Origin: Akkermansia muciniphila
GTDB lineage: Bacteria > Verrucomicrobiota > Verrucomicrobiia > Limisphaerales > BJHT01
Length of the DNA: 52,802 nucleotides
NCBI GenBank assembly: GCA_945861535.1
Contig: CAMAUZ010000057.1
Span: forward strand, 1 to 52,802
Reading direction: 5' to 3'
Positions 19,158-32,621 of the stretch are shown here, piece by piece (within the stretch, counting starts at the first letter, position 1; each line of letters begins with the position of its first letter). The position numbers and the translations under genes are program-made. Under the pieces are notes generated by a model. It did no database searches. It saw only the letters and a program-made list of their open reading frames with translations, and had not been told where the DNA came from.

Positions 19158-21647
19158 GTGACTTGGAAAACTTCCACGCAGGACACGCAGGCGCAGAGCC
19201 ATGCCCTGCTCGCGCGAATCGGCTTGGCCAGCCTGCTGGCCATGGCCGCGGTCTTGCCACTCGCCGCTGCGTCGGCCGCCGGACCGGCTGACTTCGACCA
19301 GGCTGTCGCGCCGTTTTTCGCTGAACACTGCCTCCGTTGCCACGACGCCAAGGTGGCCAAATCGGATTTCCGCATGGACACGTTGTCCCGGAAGATCGGC
19401 CTCGAGAACACGCCGCAGTGGGTGGAAATCATGGAGCGCATCAACTCCGGCGAGATGCCGCCCAAGAAGGAGAAGCAGCCTGGCGCGGCCGAGCGTGCGC
19501 GGGTGGTCGCGTGGCTGGCGGCGCGGCTCAAGGAGGGCGAGTCGGCGCGCATGGCGGCGCGCGGGCCGGTGTCCTACAACCGCCTCACGCGGGACGAATA
19601 TGTGAACACCATCCGCGACCTGCTGGGCGTGGAGTTCGACGCGAAGGATCCGGGCAACTTCCTCGAAGACCCGGAGTGGCACGGCTTCGAGCGCATCGGG
19701 TCGGTGCTGACGTTGTCGCCGTCGAACATCGAGAAGTATCTCGGGGCGGGGGAGAAGATCCTGGCGGAAGCGTACCCCGAAGTTCTTCCGCCCAAGAAAG
19801 GAGCCAAGCCCGGGGAGCCGTTCGGCGGCACGAAGCGCGCGATTGAGGAGCACCAAATCCCGGAGCGGCACCGGGAGCGCCTGCAAGAGCTGGGCCTGCT
19901 GGACAAGGTGCGGTACGACATGTGGCCGGGCGACATCTTCCGCTACTCGGAGTTGAAGGAGCCGCTGCCGGAGGCCGGGGTGTATGAAATCAGCTACACG
20001 CTTAGCGGCCTGAAGCCGGAGAAGGGCCTGGCGCCGCGCTTGAAGGTTTACGAGGCCAAGCTCGATCGCGTGTTGTTTGAGCAGGACATTGTCGCGCCGG
20101 AGGACAAGCCCGTCACGGTGACGTTTCGCGCGCACCTGCCGAAGGGCCGGCCCAGCATCGACGTGTATAACGCGGTCCCGGGACCCTCGAATCTGCCGCG
20201 TTCGGGACGCCATGGGGACACGCCGTTTGTCAGCACGAAGCTGGGCCGCATCCCGTGGCAGTTGAAGCTGACGGACGAGGCGGGCAAGCCGCGCTATCCC
20301 TTTCTCATCCTCGATTCCATCTCCTGGCGCGGGCCGATCGTGACGGACGCGGAGAAGCAGCGGCGCGCGGAGTATTTCCCGGCGAGCGAGGGCGACCTCG
20401 CGCAAGTGCGAGAAGGGCTCGGCCGGCTGGCGCGGCGCGCGTTCCGTCGCCCGCCCACCGCCGCGGAGGTGGATCATTTCACCGGCATCGTGAAGAGCGA
20501 GCTGGCGGCGAAGGAGAAATTCCCCAACGCCGTGAAGGCCGGAATGCTCGCCATCCTTTGCTCCAAGAGCTTTCTTTTCATCACCGAGGGCGACGCGGGC
20601 GCCCCGCGCGCGACCTTGAACGATTGGGAAATCGCCGCGCGCCTCTCGTATCTGCTCTGGAATTCCATGCCGGACGACCCGCTCTTCCAGCTTGCCGAGC
20701 AGGGCCGGCTGCGCGACAAGGCCGAGCTTTCCCGGCAGGTCGCGCGGATGCTCAAAGACCCGCGCGCCGCGCAGTTCGCGGACGCATTCGCCACGCAATG
20801 GCTGCGGCTGCGGAAGGTCGGCATGTTCCCGCCGGACAAGAAGCTTTACCCGGACTACGACAAGGCGCTCGAAGCCGGCATGATTGGCGAGTCAAAGGCG
20901 TTCTTCCAGGAGGTGCTCCGGCAGAACCTCTCCCTGCGCGAATTTTTCCACTCGGACTGGACCATGTTGAACGCCCGGCTCGCGGGCTTCTACGGGATCC
21001 CGGACGCGGGGCTGCCACGGGACGCGTTCCAGCGGGTTTCGCTGACCGCCGAGAGCCGGCGCGGTGGCTTGCTCACGCAGGCGGCCATTCTCTCGCTCAC
21101 ATCGGATGGCACGCGGCACCGGCTGGTGCATCGCGGCGTGTGGCTGTCCGAGGTTATTTTCGGCAAAACGCCACCGCCACCGCCGCCGAACGTGGACCCG
21201 ATTCCGACGACGCCCGTGGATTCCCCCAAGGCGACGCTTCGCATGAAGCTGGAGGCGCACATCAAGGATCCGAACTGCGCCGCGTGCCACAGCCGGATTG
21301 ACCCGCTGGGCCTGGCCTTCGAGAACTACGACGCCATCGGCCGTTGGCGCACCGAGGAAGTCACCGACGGCAAGGGCGCGAATCCGAAGGTCAATCCCGC
21401 CGGCCAGTTGGCGGACGGGCGGAGCTATGCGACGGCCGAGGATTTCAAGAAGTTGCTGCTGGCTGAGGTGGACACGTTTGCCGCCGCGTTCCTCGAGAAG
21501 CTCGCCACCTACGGCCTGCGCCGCGCGATGGACTTTGGTGACCGCGCGGACTTGCAGTCGCTGGCCACCGCCAGCAAGGCCAAGGACCACCGCCTGCGCG
21601 ACCTCGTCGAGGCATTTGTCTGTTCAGACCTTTTCCAGAAGCGCTAA
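19158..21647 (+). CDS. DUF1587/DUF1592/DUF1588/DUF1585 cytochrome-like protein
   Basis: An 829-residue secreted protein from GTG 19158, followed by a hydrophobic signal segment (about 19-42). An N-terminal PSCyt-type haem motif CLRCH (Cys58, His62) lies in a region reading EHCLRCHDAKVAKSDFRMD. DUF1587 follows (YNRLTRDEYVNTIRDLLGV, about 140-200), then DUF1595/DUF1592 (LARRAFRRPPTAAEV; ARLSYLLWNSMPDD). DUF1588 has a second haem motif CAACH (Cys707, His711) in NCAACHSRIDPLGLAFENYD, and the C-terminus is DUF1585. Such proteins are standard in Planctomycetota and Verrucomicrobiota and pair with DUF1552 proteins, as here (24 bp downstream). A role in periplasmic redox chemistry is plausible but unproven. 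Confidence 0.92.
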   Translation: MTWKTSTQDTQAQSHALLARIGLASLLAMAAVLPLAAASAAGPADFDQAVAPFFAEHCLRCHDAKVAKSDFRMDTLSRKIGLENTPQWVEIMERINSGEMPPKKEKQPGAAERARVVAWLAARLKEGESARMAARGPVSYNRLTRDEYVNTIRDLLGVEFDAKDPGNFLEDPEWHGFERIGSVLTLSPSNIEKYLGAGEKILAEAYPEVLPPKKGAKPGEPFGGTKRAIEEHQIPERHRERLQELGLLDKVRYDMWPGDIFRYSELKEPLPEAGVYEISYTLSGLKPEKGLAPRLKVYEAKLDRVLFEQDIVAPEDKPVTVTFRAHLPKGRPSIDVYNAVPGPSNLPRSGRHGDTPFVSTKLGRIPWQLKLTDEAGKPRYPFLILDSISWRGPIVTDAEKQRRAEYFPASEGDLAQVREGLGRLARRAFRRPPTAAEVDHFTGIVKSELAAKEKFPNAVKAGMLAILCSKSFLFITEGDAGAPRATLNDWEIAARLSYLLWNSMPDDPLFQLAEQGRLRDKAELSRQVARMLKDPRAAQFADAFATQWLRLRKVGMFPPDKKLYPDYDKALEAGMIGESKAFFQEVLRQNLSLREFFHSDWTMLNARLAGFYGIPDAGLPRDAFQRVSLTAESRRGGLLTQAAILSLTSDGTRHRLVHRGVWLSEVIFGKTPPPPPPNVDPIPTTPVDSPKATLRMKLEAHIKDPNCAACHSRIDPLGLAFENYDAIGRWRTEEVTDGKGANPKVNPAGQLADGRSYATAEDFKKLLLAEVDTFAAAFLEKLATYGLRRAMDFGDRADLQSLATASKAKDHRLRDLVEAFVCSDLFQKR

Positions 21648-21671: not shown

Positions 21672-23033
21672 ATGAGCCATTTGAACCTCCGCCGCTGGGA
21701 AATCAGCCGCCGCGCCGCCTTGCGCGGCATCGGCGCCACCATCGCGCTTCCGCTCCTCAACGCGATGGGCGAATTGCCCGCCGCCGCCAGGCCCCGCCGC
21801 AGCGTGTTCCTTTACATCCCCAACGGTGTGAACACGCTCACGTGGCAGATTCAGAAGGCCGGCGCGGACTACGAGTTCACCACGCCGCTGAAGTCGCTCG
21901 AGAAGCACCGCGCGGACATCACGCCCATTAGCGGACTGCACCACCCGATGGTCATCGGCAAGCACCACAACTGCGAGAAGGTGTGGCTCACCGGCGCGAA
22001 CGTGCCCGGCGATGGCGGCGCCTTCCGGAACAGCGTCTCCGCTGACCAGCTCATGGCCGACGTGCAAGGCGCCTCCACGCGCTTCGCGTCGTTCGAGATG
22101 GCCATCGAGGGCACGTCGCTCTCGTGGTCCAAGGACGGCATTCAGATCCCCGCCGAGCGGAACACGCAGCAGATTTTCAACCAGCTCTTCGGGGTGGAAA
22201 AGGAGAGCAAGGAAACCATCCGTCGCCGCCTGAGCCGGCGCAGCAGCATCCTCGACCTCGTCGCGGATGACGCCCGGCGGGTGAACCGCGGCCTCGGCAC
22301 CGAGGACCGTAGCAAGCTCGACGAATACCTCACCGCCGTCCGCCAGGTCGAGGAGCGCACGAAGCGCGCCGACGAGTGGCTGAACATCGCCAAGCCGTCG
22401 GTGCCCGCCGACGACGTGGCGCGCCTCACGCGCAAGCTCAGCATGGCCGAGGCCGGCGAGTATTACCGGCTGTTCTACGACCTCATGGCCCTGGCCCTGC
22501 GCACCGATTCCACGCGCGTCATCACCTGCGGCATCGGCAGTGAAGGCAACACCAGCGGCATCCCGGAGATCGGCATTCTCCAGACCCGCCACGGGCTTTC
22601 GCACCACAACGGCGACCCGGAGCAACTCCGCCGCCTGACCGCCACGGACACCTTTCTCGTCGAGCAGCTCAGTTACTTCCTCGACCAGCTCAAGGCGCTG
22701 CCGGAGGACGGCCGCCCCTTGCTCGACACCACGCAGGTGCTCTGGGGCAGCGGCATGGCTTACGGCCACAGCCACGGCAACGCCAACCTTCCGACGATCC
22801 TCTGCGGCGGCAAGGCGCTCGGCTACCGGCACGGCACGCATGTGGACTTCAACCTCCCAAAGATTGCCAAATACGACGTGGCCGACGCCAACGCTCACTA
22901 CAAGATCTGCTCCCGTCCCGTGGACGACAACGCCCGCCTGAGCAACCTGCTCCTCACCATGCTCCAGCGCGCGGGCGTCAAGGGCGACAAGTTCCAAGAC
23001 AGCACCGCGCCGCTCTCGCAGATTGTGGCGTGA
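21672..23033 (+). CDS. DUF1552 protein with Tat signal
   Basis: A 453-residue protein. The N-terminus has twin arginines (ISRRAALRG, Arg13-Arg14) before a hydrophobic stretch ending near residue 38. The DUF1552 signature is clear: [13 protein letters not shown], a central VLDLVAD-like helix ([18 protein letters not shown]), [16 protein letters not shown], and LPTILCGG near the end. It follows the DUF1592-type gene by 24 bp, the usual order for this pair. The molecular function of the family is unknown; a metal-binding alkaline-phosphatase-like fold has been suggested for the related DUF1501 group. Confidence 0.92.
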
Positions 23034-24397: not shown

Positions 24398-24589
24398 ATG
24401 AAAAAAACGCTCCCACTGTTCATTGCCCTCGTGCTCGGCGTCGGCACCGCCCGCGCCCTTGACCCGCATGTCGAAGCCGTCCTCCGCACCGTCGAAGGCG
24501 CGCGAGGCAAGGTGGAGAAGACTGCCGACGGCCAGAGTCTGAAACTCGTGGACCCCGCCGTGCCGGCCGCGGCGCTGAAATTTGAATGA
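24398..24589 (+). CDS. Small secreted protein, unknown
   Basis: A 63-residue protein from ATG 24398, chosen for its typical signal peptide (MKKTLPLFIALVLGVGTARA); an in-frame ATG lies 33 bp upstream. The mature part is about 43 residues, charged, with no cysteines and no recognised motif (LDPHVEAVLRTVEGARGKVE). It lies between two paralogous secreted-protein genes, 30 bp after one and 7 bp before the other, so all three are probably one transcript. It may be a short relic or a real partner peptide. Confidence 0.5.
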   Translation: MKKTLPLFIALVLGVGTARALDPHVEAVLRTVEGARGKVEKTADGQSLKLVDPAVPAAALKFE

Positions 24590-24596
24590 TTTGCCT

Positions 24597-25832
24597 ATGA
24601 AAATCTCGCTACGAAAAACGCTCTGGCTGACGCTGGCCGTCCTCGGATTCGTGCTGTCAGAACAAGGTTGGGCCCAGGTTCCCGGCGGCTTCTCTGCCGC
24701 TCCGACGAGCGACCCGCAGGTGCTGGCGGCCGCCAAGTTCGCGGCGGCCACGCGCGACCCGCACCTCAAGCTGCTGGGGGTCGAGAAGGTGCAGCAGCAG
24801 GTGGTGGCGGGGACGAATTACCGCCTCACGCTCAAGCTGGAGGACCACGGCACAAACCGCGTGGCCGAAGCCGTCGTCTGGCGCAAGCTCGACGGCACGC
24901 ACGAGTTGACCTCGTGGCAGTGGCAGCCCACCAAACCCAAGTTCAAGATTATCCCCGGTCAGGTCATCATCCCGACGGGCAATGGTGAAATGCGACGGCC
25001 ATGGGGCGAGCTCATCAGCCTCGACCTTGCGACGCGCACGGGAAAATTCCGCAACGAGAGCGACGATGCGGTGATGAGCTTCACCGTGATGCCTTACGCC
25101 GAACTGCTTCACCACGCGGCCAGCGGCGACTTGCAGGACTTCCGCGTCGGCGAGCGCGCCATCTTCCGGCTCCACGAGAACGACAAGGGCGAGTGGGTCT
25201 GGCTTACGTACATCCAGGACGAGATGAACATGATGAACGGGCACAAGGAGTATTTCTATGTGGACCGGATCGACGCCGCGAAGCGCGCGGTCGAATGCAC
25301 GTGGGCGAACTTCGACAAGAGCTTCATCCGCCAGACCAACGTGGTCATCGAGACGGATGGCGAGACGCGCTTCTGGAAGGCCGGCGCCCCGGCGCAGTTC
25401 TCGGACCTGAAGCCCGGCGACAAGCTGCGCACCAAGACCCACGGTGCCGGGGCGGGCAAGCGCCGCATCGCATGGGAGGTCTTCCTCGACGACGAGAGCC
25501 TCGGGAAATTCCAAACCGAGCAAAAGGCCGTCCACGCCGCGCGCATCCTCAAGGAAGGCGCGCCCGGCTACGTGAACGAGGCGAACGGCAAGGAGCTGCG
25601 GCTTACGCTCTTCAACGAAGGCGGCGACATCGCCAGGCAACTCAAGATCGGCAAGGCCGTCCGGGTCGCTCCCGCCGGCGTGGACCGCAAGCCCACCGCC
25701 GCACCGCTCGGCGCCACCGTGACCGCCGTCGCCACGAAGGGCCGCGAGTGCAAAGTGACGGTCTCGCTCTCCGCGGCCGAGGGTGGGTTTCAGTCTGCCG
25801 GCCTTGCCCGATTGTGGCTCGCGGGCGAATGA
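24597..25832 (+). CDS. Secreted protein with N-terminal cystatin domain
   Basis: A 411-residue protein from ATG 24597 with a signal peptide to about residue 26. Residues 30-108 read like a cystatin: glycines at the mature N-terminus (PGGF), a helix (DPQVLAAAKFAAATRDPHLK), the papain-binding loop QVVAG (68-72) followed by TNYRLTLKL, then AEAVVWRKLDGTHELTSW, closely parallel to plant cystatins. Cystatins inhibit papain-like cysteine proteases; bacterial members are known but rare. The rest (about 110-411) is a beta-rich region shared with the upstream gene 23136-24368. An inhibitory role is predicted from the loop; the function of the C-terminal region is unknown. Confidence 0.75.
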   Translation: MKISLRKTLWLTLAVLGFVLSEQGWAQVPGGFSAAPTSDPQVLAAAKFAAATRDPHLKLLGVEKVQQQVVAGTNYRLTLKLEDHGTNRVAEAVVWRKLDGTHELTSWQWQPTKPKFKIIPGQVIIPTGNGEMRRPWGELISLDLATRTGKFRNESDDAVMSFTVMPYAELLHHAASGDLQDFRVGERAIFRLHENDKGEWVWLTYIQDEMNMMNGHKEYFYVDRIDAAKRAVECTWANFDKSFIRQTNVVIETDGETRFWKAGAPAQFSDLKPGDKLRTKTHGAGAGKRRIAWEVFLDDESLGKFQTEQKAVHAARILKEGAPGYVNEANGKELRLTLFNEGGDIARQLKIGKAVRVAPAGVDRKPTAAPLGATVTAVATKGRECKVTVSLSAAEGGFQSAGLARLWLAGE

Positions 25833-25991
25833 ATCACCGGTCGGCGCTGGCGTGCAAACATTGGTGGAACCGGAAGTGCTCAATCTCTGCTACCCGCTGC
25901 GGATCGTGCTGCTCCCGCGGCATCCTTTCGCCCGCCCAGTGTTTCCTTGAATCCCCCCGGCATCCGCTGTCTAGTCTCCGCACAAAAAACT

Positions 25992-26837
25992 ATGAAAAAT
26001 TCCCTTCGCCACTTTGTCGCCGCCGTGGCCGGCCTCAGTCTCTGCGCATCCGTTGCCTCGGCGGCCGATGCCAAACCCTTGCGCGTGCTGCTCATCACCG
26101 GCGGCTGCTGCCATGATTACGCCAAGCAAAAGGACATCCTCAAAAAAGGCCTCGAAGCCCGCGCCAACGTCGTCGTGGACCAGATCCACAGCGATGACAA
26201 AGGCACCAAGCCCCCGCTCCCCATCTACGGCAATCCTGATTACGCCAAGGGCTACGACGTCGTCCTCCACGACGAATGCTCCGCCAGCATTGGCGACCCC
26301 GCCGTCATCGCCGGCGTCCTCAAGCCCCATCAGGACGGCATCCCCGGCGTGAACCTCCACTGCGCCATGCACAGCTATCGCTTCGGCGACTTCGGCAAGC
26401 CCGTCCCCGCCGGTGCGCCCAACGGTGCCTGGTATGCTTACCTTGGCCTCCACTCCACCGGCCACGGCCCGCAGGAACCCATCGCGATCAATTTCCTCGC
26501 CGGCGCCTCCCCGATCACCAAGGGCCTTGAAAACTGGACCACCGGCAAAGAGGAGCTGTACAACAACATCCAAGTTCTCACCGGCAAGCCGCTCGCCAAA
26601 GGCAAGCAGACCGTGAAGGGCAAAGATGGCGCGACCAAGGACGTCGAGACCGTTGTCGTCTGGACCAACGAATATGGCAGCAAAAACACCCGCGTCTTCA
26701 GCACCACCCTCGGCCACAACAACGCCACCGTGGAAGACGCCCGCTACCTCGACCTTGTGACCCGCGGCCTCCTCTGGGCCTGTGGCAAGCTCGACGACAA
26801 CGGCCTGCCCGCCGCCGGCTACGGCGCGAAGAAGTAA
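25992..26837 (+). CDS. ThuA-domain secreted protein
   Basis: A 281-residue protein with a signal peptide (MKNSLRHFVAAVAGLSLCASVASA). The mature part is a ThuA-like, glutamine-amidotransferase-fold domain: RVLLITGGCCHDYAKQKDIL at the start, KGYDVVLHDECSA in the middle, GVNLHCAMHSYR at the nucleophile-elbow-like position, HSTGHGPQEPI, and TRVFSTTLGHNNATVED near the end. ThuA proteins occur in sugar-utilisation clusters; a catalytic role is not established. The gene is 159 bp from the upstream gene and ends 32 bp before a strong terminator, so it closes this transcription block. Confidence 0.88.
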   Translation: MKNSLRHFVAAVAGLSLCASVASAADAKPLRVLLITGGCCHDYAKQKDILKKGLEARANVVVDQIHSDDKGTKPPLPIYGNPDYAKGYDVVLHDECSASIGDPAVIAGVLKPHQDGIPGVNLHCAMHSYRFGDFGKPVPAGAPNGAWYAYLGLHSTGHGPQEPIAINFLAGASPITKGLENWTTGKEELYNNIQVLTGKPLAKGKQTVKGKDGATKDVETVVVWTNEYGSKNTRVFSTTLGHNNATVEDARYLDLVTRGLLWACGKLDDNGLPAAGYGAKK

Positions 26838-27882: not shown

Positions 27883-30800
27883 TCAGGGCAGGGTGGTGAA
27901 GGTGAAATTGCCGGAAGCCCCGACGTTGCCGTAGGCGTCGGTGCCGCGCACTTGGAAGTTGTAAATCTTGCCGCGCTCCAGCCCGGTGAGGCGGACGCTG
28001 TGATGGCGGACTTTGGCGGGCGACAGCGCGGAGGTCAGGGCGTAGGCGGTGGTGAGGCCATAGCGCACCTGGGAATCGGCGATTTCATTGGTGGCCCAAG
28101 TGATGGTCGCGGTGGTCGCGGTCACATTGGTGGCGGTGACCAACGTGAATTTGGCGGGTTGGGTGTCTTTGCTGTAGAAGGCCGAGTTGGTGGCGACCAG
28201 CGGAATGCCGGCGAGGCTTTTCGCCCCGCCGGTTCCGCCGAGGACGTTCACGAGGTATTTCCAGTCGGACTTTAGCTGGGCCGTGGGCCGCAGGGTGGCG
28301 GTGAGCGTGCCGGGTTCGTACGTGACGGTGGCGGGCAGGTTGGTGGTCTGGTCGGACCGGCGCAGGGTGAAGGTCGTCGGCGTGAGCGTCGCCGGATCCA
28401 TCGCTTGGGAGAAGGTCGCGGTGACGAGGGTGGTCAGCGGGATGTTGCGCGATTCTTTGGCCGGGAAGAAGCGGGTCACGGTGGGGGCGGTGGTCGCGGC
28501 GGTGGTCACGGTCACGGTTGCGACCGCGCTGGTGGCGCTGCCCGAGCTGTTGGTGGCGACGCAGCGGAACTGCGTGCCGTTGTCGAGCAGGGCGAGCACG
28601 GGCGTGACGTACGTCCCGCCAGTGGCACCGGGGAGGTCGAGGAAACCGACCGTGGCCGGGGCCTGGCGCTGCCAGCGGAGCGTCGGTGCGGGTGTGCCGA
28701 TGGCGGTCGCGGTGAAGGTGGCGGTCTGCCCCACCAATCCGCTTTTGTTGCCGGGTTGCAGGGTGAAGACCGGGCTGCCGTTGTTCACGGTGACCACGGC
28801 CACCAGGCTGGTGACAGAACCGGCGACGTTGGTTGCCACGCAGCGAAACTGCGTGGCGGTGTCGGCGAGGGTCAGGACCGGCGTGAGGTAGGTGCCAGTG
28901 GTCGCGTCCGGGAGGTCAAGGAAGCCGACGGTTCCGGGTGCCTGGCGCTGCCATTGGAGCGCGGGCGTGGGAGACCCGGCGGCCGTGACGGTCAGGCTGA
29001 CGGTTTGCCCCGCAATGACGGTTTTGGACGCGGGCTGCAGGGTGAAACTGGGACCGATGGCGGTGACTGTCACGCTGACGACCGCGCTGGTGACGGAACC
29101 GGCGACGTTGGTGGCGACGCAGCGGAACTGCGTGGCGGTGTCGGCGAGGGTCAGGACCGGCGTGAGGTAGGTGCCAGTGGTCGCGCCCGGGAGGTCAAGG
29201 AAGCCGACGGTTCCGGGTGCCTGGCGCTGCCATTGGAGGGCGGGGGCAGGCACGCCGGCGGCGGCGGCGGTGACGGAAGTGGTCAGGCCCACTCCGACCA
29301 CTTTGTTGGTCGGTTGCAGGGTGAAACTGGGGGCGACGGCGGTTACCGTCACGGTGGCGGTGGCGCTGGTGGCGGAGCCGGCGGGGTTGGTGGCGACGCA
29401 GCGGAACTGGGTACCCGTGTTGGCCAGGCCGAGCGGCGGCGTGGTGTAGGTGCCGGCGGTGGCGCCGGGCAGGTCGGTAAACTCAGCGGCCCCGGCGGTT
29501 TTGCTCTGCCATTGCAACGTGGGGGTGGGCACGCCGGACGCGGCGGCGGTCAGGGCGACGGTCTGGCCAACGGTCACGGTCTTGGCTGCGGGCGACAGCG
29601 TGAACGTCGGCGCGATGGGCGCGGCGCTGCTGACCTGGATGACGACATTGGGTGTCCCCCCGAAGCGCTCGATGGTTTCCTGCACCATCATCCATTGGAA
29701 ATTGTAGTTGCCCGCCGTCGCCGGGGCGCGGATGGCAAAGGTGAAGGTGTACAAGGCCCCCGGCGGCACCACGTTGCCCAAATAAACCCGGCGGAGATTC
29801 CAAGTGCCGTTGTCGAGGGGATTGATGGAACAGAGGCGGTGTTTGGTGGCTTCCGCCCAGTCGTTGGTGCCGACATTCCGCAGGGTGATGGTGGCCAGCG
29901 CGGTCGAACCGGGGGCCATCAGGGTGGGCACGTTTTGCGAAACAAAGGCGGCGACGTTGCCCTTGGTGCCGAGGGGAAGCACGTTCACGACCGCGTTGGC
30001 GCTGGGTTGTCCGAAGAAGCCCGCGCCTTCGCGGAGCATCCGCCATTGCAGGTTGTGGGTCCCCGGAGTCAACGGGGCGACGATTTCAAACGTGAAGGTG
30101 GCGATGGCTCCGGGCGCGACATCGTTGAGCAGGGAGACGCGATTGAGGCCCCAGGTGAGGTTGTCGGGCGGGTTGGTGGCACCGAGGAAATAGTTGTCCG
30201 CCGTGGTCCAGGTGGTGGAGCCGATGTTCACCAGGCGGATGGTGATCACGTTGGTCTCTCCGGGCAGGAGATGATCGGGAACCACCTGTGAGACCAAGCC
30301 GGCATTGTCACCCACGGTGAAGACCGGCACGAAGGTGGCCGTGTAGGTCGTCGGCAGTTCTGGTGCGTCGAGGGTGTGAACGGCGGGCAGGCCGTCGGAC
30401 CAAGACACAAATTGGTGCGGGATTCCCCCCACGACCTGGTCGGCCGCGCCGATCTCCCGGGTGAGGCCGACGACGGTGGTACGCGTCGCCGGGGCCGTGA
30501 GCGGCCGTTCATCGAGGGTGATCTGCAGGCCCGGCGGATCGGTTTGTAGCGTGAGGCTGGACTTGACCGGGAGCACGTCCCGGAAGGTGGTGTGCGCGAC
30601 GCCGTTCGCGTCGGTGACGGTGAGGAAGATGCGGTAGCCGACCTCGTCGCTGGTCTCGCCGGTCCGCGGAATTTCGAAGAATCCGTTGGTGATTCCGCCG
30701 GTGTCCGGGAGGTACGGGTGCGAATGTTCGAGGTGCAGAAACTCGACGGACCAGGTGAACGCGTCGGGCGCGAGGACGCCGTCCTCGGGATCGGTGCCGG

Positions 30801-32343
30801 TCCCCGAAAACACCACCGTGTCGCCGGCGCGGTAGGTCGCGCCGAAGGGCGGATCGACGATGGTGGCGCGGGGCGGCAGGTTGCCGCTCACCGTGAGGGT
30901 CGCGGCGGTGCTGGTGGCGGTCCCCGCGCCGTTGGCGACAACGCAGCGGAACTGCGAGTTGTGATCGGCGAGGGTCACGCCGGTCAGTTGGAAGGTGGTC
31001 GTCGTAGCTCCGGAAATGTTGGAGAAGTCGAGCGCCGGCGGCGTTTTGCGCTGCCATTGGAACGTGAGCGGCGCGGTGCCAAAGGCCTCGACTGTGAACG
31101 ACGCGGGATCGCCGACGGAGACCGTGAGGCTGGCGGGCGCGTTGCCGATCTGCGGGGCCTGCGCGCCGACATAGCGGATCGAATGGACCTCTTTCTGATT
31201 GCGCGCGACGTAGTGCAACACGCCATCGGGGGCCACGGTCAGGTAAAGCGGCAGCGTCCGGGCGACGCCATCCTCGAGCGGAATGGTCGCAAACGTGGTG
31301 GCGGTGCGGGTGTTTGGATCCAGCACCCGGAACACCTGGGTCCCGCCATCCACGAAAAAGTATTTGCCGAAATATTGGGCCGGGAAACTGGGGCGCGCGG
31401 GATTGTAAAACGCGCCGCCCGTGATGGCGCTGCTCCGCGGGGCGGTCGGCGGATGCGCGTAGGCAAAGAACGGATCCTTGTAGGTGGGGCTGTTGTCCCC
31501 GACCGCGCCTTCGCGCGCGGGCCAGCCATAGTTGCCGCCGCGGACGATTTCATCAATTTCCTCCCACGCGCCGGAGCCGACGTCGTTGGCGAAGATCCGG
31601 CCGGTGCCGGCTTGGATCGCGAGGCTGAAGGGATTGCGCAACCCGAGCGCCCAGATGGCCTGGTTCTGGCCGGTGGTCTGGCCGACGAAGGGGTTGTCCT
31701 GGGGAATGCTCCCGTCGAGGTTCAGGCGGAGGATTTTGCCCATCACGGAATTGAACGACTGGGAGAGATTGGGCTGATTGTTTTCGCCGACGGAGAGATA
31801 CAGCTTGCCGTCCAGACCGAACTGGATGCCGCCGCCGTTGTGCCAGTCCGACGCGCCGAGCGTCGGGAGGTCGAACAAGGCGACCTCGCTTCCGGGCACC
31901 GCGACATCGCCGTCGGCGGTGAAGCGGCTCAGGCGGAAATGGATCGTCGGGGTCTTGGCGGGGTAGTAAATGTAGAGGTAGCCGTTTTGCGCAAAATTGG
32001 GATCCACCTGCACGCCCACCAGGCCACGTTCGGCATATTGGTGGACTGACACGTACAAAAAGGCCCGGCTCAGGCGCACGCCGTTCTTCACCACCGCCAC
32101 CGCGCCGGCATGTTCACAGACGAAGAGGCGTCCATCCGGCGCCACGGCCATGGCGGTCGGCGACGCGAATCCGGTGATGCGGCTTTCGACAAAGCCCGCC
32201 GGCAGGATGATTTGCGCCGCCCCGCCGCGCAGGCCCGTGCTCAACAGGACGCTGACGCCGAGGCTGACGGAGAGGAGCCACGACGGCACTCGATTGCCAC
32301 GAATCAGGCCACGGCAGAAACCACCAATTCCTTGGTTTTTCAT
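27883..32343 (-). CDS. Giant secreted PQQ glucose/sorbosone dehydrogenase-like protein with Ig domains
   Basis: A 1486-residue protein from ATG 32343, followed by a basic N-terminus and a hydrophobic export segment; an in-frame ATG 45 bp upstream is less likely. Residues about 45-390 are a glucose/sorbosone dehydrogenase-type beta-propeller (ASPTAMAVAPDGRLFVCEHAG, GLVGVQVDPNF, WALGLRNPFSLA, NYGWPAREG). Then follow one Ig-like domain, a PKD-like region, two domains resembling the NBR1 Ig-like fold (VNIGSTTWTTADNY; RNVGTNDWAEATKH), four tandem Ig-like repeats (93 residues each), a Big_5-like domain (SRNIPLTTLVTATFSQAMD) and a C-terminal fibronectin III-like domain. It is probably extracellular, possibly a sugar-oxidising enzyme with adhesive stalk domains. 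Confidence 0.85.
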   Translation of the reverse strand: MKNQGIGGFCRGLIRGNRVPSWLLSVSLGVSVLLSTGLRGGAAQIILPAGFVESRITGFASPTAMAVAPDGRLFVCEHAGAVAVVKNGVRLSRAFLYVSVHQYAERGLVGVQVDPNFAQNGYLYIYYPAKTPTIHFRLSRFTADGDVAVPGSEVALFDLPTLGASDWHNGGGIQFGLDGKLYLSVGENNQPNLSQSFNSVMGKILRLNLDGSIPQDNPFVGQTTGQNQAIWALGLRNPFSLAIQAGTGRIFANDVGSGAWEEIDEIVRGGNYGWPAREGAVGDNSPTYKDPFFAYAHPPTAPRSSAITGGAFYNPARPSFPAQYFGKYFFVDGGTQVFRVLDPNTRTATTFATIPLEDGVARTLPLYLTVAPDGVLHYVARNQKEVHSIRYVGAQAPQIGNAPASLTVSVGDPASFTVEAFGTAPLTFQWQRKTPPALDFSNISGATTTTFQLTGVTLADHNSQFRCVVANGAGTATSTAATLTVSGNLPPRATIVDPPFGATYRAGDTVVFSGTGTDPEDGVLAPDAFTWSVEFLHLEHSHPYLPDTGGITNGFFEIPRTGETSDEVGYRIFLTVTDANGVAHTTFRDVLPVKSSLTLQTDPPGLQITLDERPLTAPATRTTVVGLTREIGAADQVVGGIPHQFVSWSDGLPAVHTLDAPELPTTYTATFVPVFTVGDNAGLVSQVVPDHLLPGETNVITIRLVNIGSTTWTTADNYFLGATNPPDNLTWGLNRVSLLNDVAPGAIATFTFEIVAPLTPGTHNLQWRMLREGAGFFGQPSANAVVNVLPLGTKGNVAAFVSQNVPTLMAPGSTALATITLRNVGTNDWAEATKHRLCSINPLDNGTWNLRRVYLGNVVPPGALYTFTFAIRAPATAGNYNFQWMMVQETIERFGGTPNVVIQVSSAAPIAPTFTLSPAAKTVTVGQTVALTAAASGVPTPTLQWQSKTAGAAEFTDLPGATAGTYTTPPLGLANTGTQFRCVATNPAGSATSATATVTVTAVAPSFTLQPTNKVVGVGLTTSVTAAAAGVPAPALQWQRQAPGTVGFLDLPGATTGTYLTPVLTLADTATQFRCVATNVAGSVTSAVVSVTVTAIGPSFTLQPASKTVIAGQTVSLTVTAAGSPTPALQWQRQAPGTVGFLDLPDATTGTYLTPVLTLADTATQFRCVATNVAGSVTSLVAVVTVNNGSPVFTLQPGNKSGLVGQTATFTATAIGTPAPTLRWQRQAPATVGFLDLPGATGGTYVTPVLALLDNGTQFRCVATNSSGSATSAVATVTVTTAATTAPTVTRFFPAKESRNIPLTTLVTATFSQAMDPATLTPTTFTLRRSDQTTNLPATVTYEPGTLTATLRPTAQLKSDWKYLVNVLGGTGGAKSLAGIPLVATNSAFYSKDTQPAKFTLVTATNVTATTATITWATNEIADSQVRYGLTTAYALTSALSPAKVRHHSVRLTGLERGKIYNFQVRGTDAYGNVGASGNFTFTTLP
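28613..29728 (-). repeat. Four tandem 279 bp Ig-domain repeats
   Basis: Units of 279 bp (93 codons) with boundaries near 28613, 28892, 29171, 29450 and 29728 inside the coding sequence. The units at 28892 and 29171 are nearly identical over long stretches (shared caaggaagccgacggttccg), the outer two more diverged. Each encodes an Ig-like domain with LQWQRQAPGTVGF and TQFRCVATN. Confidence 0.88.
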
Positions 32344-32621
32344 AATTAGGTACGACAGATGCAACAACACGGGCGACGACACAGGCAAACGTTGTGTTTC
32401 CTAGCACAGAAATCCGGGAGCACAAAATGGACTTTCGGGCCGGGCCGACCGCGGCGGTGTAGATGACAAACTTGAGCCGCGCTGGCCAGTAGAATTCTGC
32501 AACATTTCTTGCGCTCCAATCCGCAACCATGTTTTCGTCGTTTCGCCCGCCCGACAGGCCGCTCATGCGCACGGTTTATGTGGGGTGAACCGGGCGGATC
32601 TGGCGTGGAAACCGAACACTT
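32344..32621. other. Divergent intergenic region
   Basis: Lies between the starts of two divergent genes, so promoters for both are expected. It is less GC-rich than its surroundings. I could not support a specific promoter, operator or RNA element. Confidence 0.4.

Follow-up and report, generated by a model that had tools for sequence, protein, structure and literature searches.

A cystatin domain fused to a predicted barrel protein of a conserved DUF1592-DUF1552 gene cluster in a verrucomicrobial bacterium

In most cystatins, a tryptophan of the second hairpin loop adds to the affinity of the inhibitor. The members of the superfamily contact papain-like proteases at three places, an N-terminal strand with Gly, the loop with QxVxG and a second loop that contains Pro-Trp; the stefins do without the second-loop Trp (PMC5072729). 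In a survey of 2009, Kordis and Turk described bacterial cystatins and stefins as rare and patchily distributed, one of them (in Polaribacter) being a fusion; Verrucomicrobia and Planctomycetes had none, and protection of bacteria from host proteases was proposed as the role of these proteins (PMC2784779). The PSCyt/PSD genes, which are frequent in epilimnion Verrucomicrobia, are of unknown function, and the PSCyt proteins of freshwater Verrucomicrobia are predicted to be periplasmic or cytoplasmic, not extracellular (PMC5615132). The protein described here belongs to both of these subjects.

It is encoded in a window (the whole stretch of DNA analysed, 52,802 nucleotides) of a 7.94 Mb draft genome whose nearest relatives are Limisphaerales/Pedosphaera-type Verrucomicrobiota; the host of the cystatin fusion is a freshwater-type verrucomicrobial bacterium. 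The uninterrupted reading frame 24597-25832 on the plus strand starts with an ATG at 24597, its stop codon ends at 25832, and the product has 411 amino acids. Residues 1-26 (24597..24674, plus strand; ending in LSEQGWA, followed by Q) resemble a signal peptide when the sequence is judged by eye. An equivalent leader is found in the homologs, directly before the cystatin or, in unfused proteins, directly before the barrel region, and secretion of the protein, proposed earlier from the sequence alone, agrees with this. The cystatin domain occupies residues 27-109 (24675..24923, plus strand) and the C-terminal region residues 111-411 (24927..25829, plus strand).

The presence of a cystatin domain at residues 30-108 was the central claim of the sequence-only reading. 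Both its identity and its N-terminal position are upheld by two Pfam models that score above their cut-offs over exactly these residues, PF16845 SQAPI (E 8.7e-9, 36.1 bits, cut-off 31) and PF00031 Cystatin, the model proposed in that reading for an HMM search (E 5.9e-6, 26.9 bits, cut-off 22.2; 29.6 bits for the domain by itself). No NCBIfam match was obtained for the protein. An HMM of standalone verrucomicrobial cystatins only gave 76.9 bits for the protein, compared with 7.6 bits for the best of 2000 shuffles. The suggested resemblance to plant cystatins is evident in a PDB sequence search, where the best match is potato multicystatin (7.5e-16, summed over three domains) and further matches are plant cysteine proteinase inhibitors, the plant-consensus Adhiron and tick cystatins.

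Structure prediction, also proposed as a check, points in the same direction. The cystatin and barrel halves were modelled apart; a full-length MSA misplaced the strand-5 Trp of the cystatin-only rows. In the AlphaFold2 model of the cystatin domain, obtained with 19 homologs (pLDDT 91.7), a helix (14-27) is wrapped by an antiparallel beta-sheet of four strands (32-44, 46-57, 60-70 and 76-83), as in the structural matches. The best Foldseek matches of the model are cystatins (6.6e-5), and engineered Affimers/Adhirons are among its structural neighbours. VIA-align gives a Z of 13.9 to multicystatin and, for tarocystatin as bound to papain, a Z of 13.8 with an rmsd of 1.8 over 80 residues; it adds cystatin E/M-legumain complexes to the neighbours. 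A chance or composition artefact, in favour of which only the shortness of the domain can be named, is ruled out by the two Pfam models, the distance of the independent HMM score from the best shuffle, the cystatin fold at high confidence and the existence of 36 homologous domains; its probability is negligible. Residues ~27-108 are a genuine cystatin domain of the superfamily MEROPS I25 / PF00031.

Of the three elements by which cystatins contact proteases, this domain retains two. Gly30-Gly31 (24684..24689, plus strand), the first contact element of cystatins, precede strand 1 and the helix, and the conserved QVVAG (residues 68-72; 24798..24812, plus strand) forms the first hairpin loop, L1, where strand 2 of the model turns into strand 3. 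Both had been named as hallmarks from the sequence alone, and both stand. The third hallmark of that reading, a trailing Trp, does not hold as the Trp of the second hairpin, which is lost: W107 lies in strand 5, and W95 is the strand-4 Trp common to plants. In the alignment with standalone verrucomicrobial cystatins, the second hairpin loop L2 (residues 96-101; 24882..24899, plus strand) reads RKLDGT in place of the xKPWxN of type 2 and plant cystatins, and thus lacks the Pro-Trp of most cystatins. VWWQ(P/A/S)WRxPxPYxLTSW is a frequent reading in the standalone proteins and lines up with VWVKPW of plants. At the second loop, the members of the fused clade have no Trp and a gap of three residues, or of two in some of them. 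No cysteine occurs in residues 27-115, so the two conserved disulfides of type 2 (animal) cystatins are absent.

With the phytocystatins, such as potato multicystatin and tarocystatin, the domain shares the fold, the Gly-Gly start, an FA(V)-type helix motif, QVVAG, the EAxVW strand 4 and the lack of disulfides, but it has no Pro-Trp in the second hairpin and a shorter stretch from the helix to strand 2, and it is bacterial and fused to a barrel protein. The stefins (type 1) resemble it in having no second-loop Trp, no disulfides and no appending structure; in contrast to them, the window domain has a secretion leader (by eye), is part of a larger protein, and has its nearest PDB sequences among plant proteins, not stefins. 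From type 2 cystatins it differs by the absence of both Pro-Trp and disulfides. The domain is therefore a member of the cystatin superfamily that fits neither the stefins, since it is secreted, nor the type 2 or plant cystatins, since it has no Pro-Trp.

The Gly-Gly and QVVAG loops of cystatins are exposed, and the fold does not need them. Each Gly of Gly30-Gly31 is present in 97% of the 36 homologous domains, and QVVAG is conserved at 94-100% per position. The mean entropy of these elements is 0.12 bits versus 1.67 elsewhere (p 7.6e-5), a contrast that is inflated, and a conservation that is partly sample selection, because the homologs were gathered by searches favouring the QVVAG/GG motifs; in the fused clade alone the values are 0.11 and 1.01 for the rest (p 0.0016). 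This pattern bears on the idea that the cystatin fold is a binding or docking module which holds an enzyme or the barrel protein to a partner or surface, with inhibition lost in the fused clade. Such a role would fit the loss of the second-loop Trp in this clade, the occurrence of one subfamily on three unlike partners (the barrels, a BNR_2 sialidase-like domain and a 3-keto-disaccharide hydrolase) and the use of the fold as a binding scaffold in the engineered Affimers/Adhirons found near it. However, a pure scaffold would not need Gly-Gly and QVVAG, which are near-unchanged even in the fused clade, and we consider docking possible but rather doubtful.

The specificity of the domain could also lie in another protease class, either aspartic peptidases, as for the squash inhibitor SQAPI, or legumain. 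The SQAPI model does outscore the cystatin model (36.1 vs 26.9 bits), and cystatin E/M-legumain complexes are seen among the structural neighbours. At the same time SQAPI is an offshoot derived from plant cystatins, so that its high score reflects plant-cystatin-like sequence in general, and the domain has an intact QVVAG, which serves for C1 proteases; we regard this specificity as very improbable.

The remaining part of the protein had been noted as an uncharacterised beta-rich region. It is real, and represents a conserved family of three predicted barrels, mostly without cystatin. For residues 111-411, AlphaFold2 predicts three small OB-like barrels (pLDDT 88.6) at about 25002-25220, 25248-25484 and 25560-25820 of the plus strand, the last two being separated by a helix. 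The best Foldseek match of the region is to tandem cold-shock domains (E 2.4e-4, TM 0.21-0.35), weaker ones being CusF and other OB or barrel domains, and the best VIA-align match (Z 9.4 over 78 residues) covers the third barrel alone; these matches are loose, and no function can be read from them. Homologs of the barrel region with 54-87% identity are found in Verrucomicrobiota and Planctomycetota MAGs, usually without a cystatin, as is a 64% identical paralog on contig C147 of the window genome. On contig C11 of the same genome (L004, 1357-3267), an SMP-30/gluconolactonase-type domain is followed by a remote copy of the barrel region (26% identity), and L026 and L040 have similar fusions.

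The barrel protein is the last member of a conserved gene cluster. Upstream of it on the plus strand lie a PSCyt1/PSD cytochrome-type gene with Pfam domains DUF1592, 1588, 1587, 1585 and 1595 (19158..21647), a DUF1552 gene (PF07586, E 3.1e-85; 21672..23033) and the gene for a companion secreted protein, P2 (23136..24368). P2, taken as a second barrel-type protein, has no Pfam match, and its homologs are weakly similar to the barrel region. The order DUF1592 - DUF1552 - P2 - barrel protein is kept near many homologs, fused or not, and the window thus agrees with the PSCyt/PSD (DUF1592)-DUF1552 clusters of Planctomycetes and Verrucomicrobia that have unfused relatives, except that the barrel protein of its clade bears a cystatin. 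Of the two neighbours pointed out earlier, the cytochrome-like gene is the one just described, and the ThuA gene is confirmed by Pfam at 25950-26837. ThuA was not found beside homologs of the barrel protein; hence it is outside the conserved cluster and was rejected as a functional partner. Between P2 and the cystatin gene, a 63-aa ORF (24398..24589, plus strand) with a signal-peptide-like start matches an intact ~340-aa gene (phmmer E 1.6e-19) that occupies this place in a close relative (L044, 4892-5923), and is apparently a truncated remnant of such a gene. The repeat pattern of the full gene resembles leucine-rich repeats, and a related gene is found at the same place in L045. On the other side of the cystatin gene, a 1501-aa secreted-looking ORF on the minus strand (27883-32388) contains several Ig-like repeats that are almost identical (LQWQRQAPGTVGFLDLPGATTGTYLTPVLTLADTATQFRCVATN).

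Few genomes of the phylum have a cystatin: PF00031 was detected in 8 of 388, and the family profile matched 29 of 320 genomes of the order. The window genome has two cystatin domains, that of the window protein and that of a BNR_2 sialidase-like fusion on contig C7. In the latter (L003, 1501-2847) the cystatin is N-terminal to the BNR_2 domain (E 1.4e-90). Together with the barrel region and BNR_2, the third fusion partner of the subfamily is the 3-keto-disaccharide hydrolase, to which the cystatin is C-terminal in L022; the remaining verrucomicrobial cystatins are small and start with a signal or lipoprotein-like leader. Matches also occur in the second phylum, sampled by way of a planctomycete MAG, in 6 of 392 genomes; they keep GG and Q(V/I)V(A/S)G, and in some cases there are two cystatin copies. 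On this side, L115 (contig C1, near 774661) encodes a protein with two tandem cystatin domains, and in L113 a longer secreted protein carries its cystatin at the C-terminus. Our data are similar to those of Kordis and Turk in that the bacterial members are rare and patchy; in contrast to their set, both phyla have cystatins, and Verrucomicrobiota have a fused subfamily with three partner types.

In the domain tree, the barrel-fused cystatins form one clade (99/94), which adjoins the BNR- and hydrolase-fused cystatins; the joint group (88/88) includes one long-branch standalone row. In the barrel-region tree the fused proteins fall into one group with unfused members nested inside, a topology that needs at least three changes, whether gains, losses or both. 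The unfused members run from the signal peptide directly to an identical KPxLKIIPGQVI start, therefore the cystatin behaves as a cassette, and in one clade it lies between signal peptide and barrels. Several proteins closely homologous to the barrel protein do not have the domain, by loss or because they never had it, so that it is dispensable.

Based on these observations, we suggest that a secreted protein of the DUF1592-DUF1552 cluster gained a true cystatin, inserted after the signal peptide and ahead of the three barrels. The domain would block papain-like (C1) cysteine proteases, with the QVVAG loop and the Gly-Gly of the N-terminal strand entering the active-site cleft in the stefin manner, that is, with no second-loop Trp. 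Its target would be a foreign protease, such as an algal enzyme or a cathepsin of protists that graze on bacteria, and the barrel half may hold the inhibitor next to the cytochrome-type complex in the cell envelope, or may itself be shielded by the cystatin. To this scheme as a whole, with foreign proteases as the most likely targets, we give about an even chance. The loss of the second-loop Trp in the fused clade and the dispensability of the domain would both count against an inhibitor, and the predicted periplasmic or cytoplasmic location of PSCyt proteins (PMC5615132) makes contact with foreign proteases harder.

A foreign target seems the most likely because the domain is outside the cytoplasm and its carriers are not enriched in C1 proteases of their own. 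Among 146 relatives, such proteases are encoded in 2 of the 10 cystatin-bearing genomes and in 17 of the 136 others (Fisher p 0.62); in view of this lack of co-occurrence, own C1 proteases were rejected as the general target. When heterotrophic flagellates grow on bacteria, cysteine cathepsins far exceed all their other peptidases in expression (PMC10268365), and it is by combining such ecological considerations with the lack of C1 association that the foreign target becomes the more likely one in general. In the window genome itself, an own secreted papain-like protease is a possible target: contig C19 (L079, 607-3171) encodes a large secreted protein that includes a C1 peptidase domain of the papain type (PF00112, E 3e-8; motifs QGSIGSCASF, GHAMTVVGY and NSWGTDWG), and a congener encodes such a protein too. 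The C1 domain is followed there by putative Ig (He_PIG) domains. Nevertheless, the gene is on a different contig, and C1 proteases are absent in 8 of the 10 cystatin-bearing genomes and present in 17 of 136 others, which makes it improbable that the cystatin is an endogenous regulator of the bacterium's own protease.

The fused subfamily of Verrucomicrobiota is new, as are its three partners and the insertion into a protein of the DUF1592/DUF1552 cluster: a literature search with partial coverage returned nothing on these cystatin fusions, and no function tests of bacterial cystatins were found in the literature searched. With its contacts conserved but one lost, the fused subfamily provides a small, soluble and easily assayed domain, on which it could be tested directly whether bacteria use protease inhibitors to counter grazers or hosts. 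In addition, a domain with a suggested activity now adjoins the abundant and unexplained PSCyt/DUF1552 clusters. More tentatively, and with a probability that we consider low, Verrucomicrobiota may use a dedicated, shortened cystatin subfamily lacking the second-loop Trp as a mobile add-on by which secreted enzymes and envelope proteins resist predator or algal cathepsins. If this is true, the cystatin would be a built-in protease shield, a bacterial anti-digestion device.
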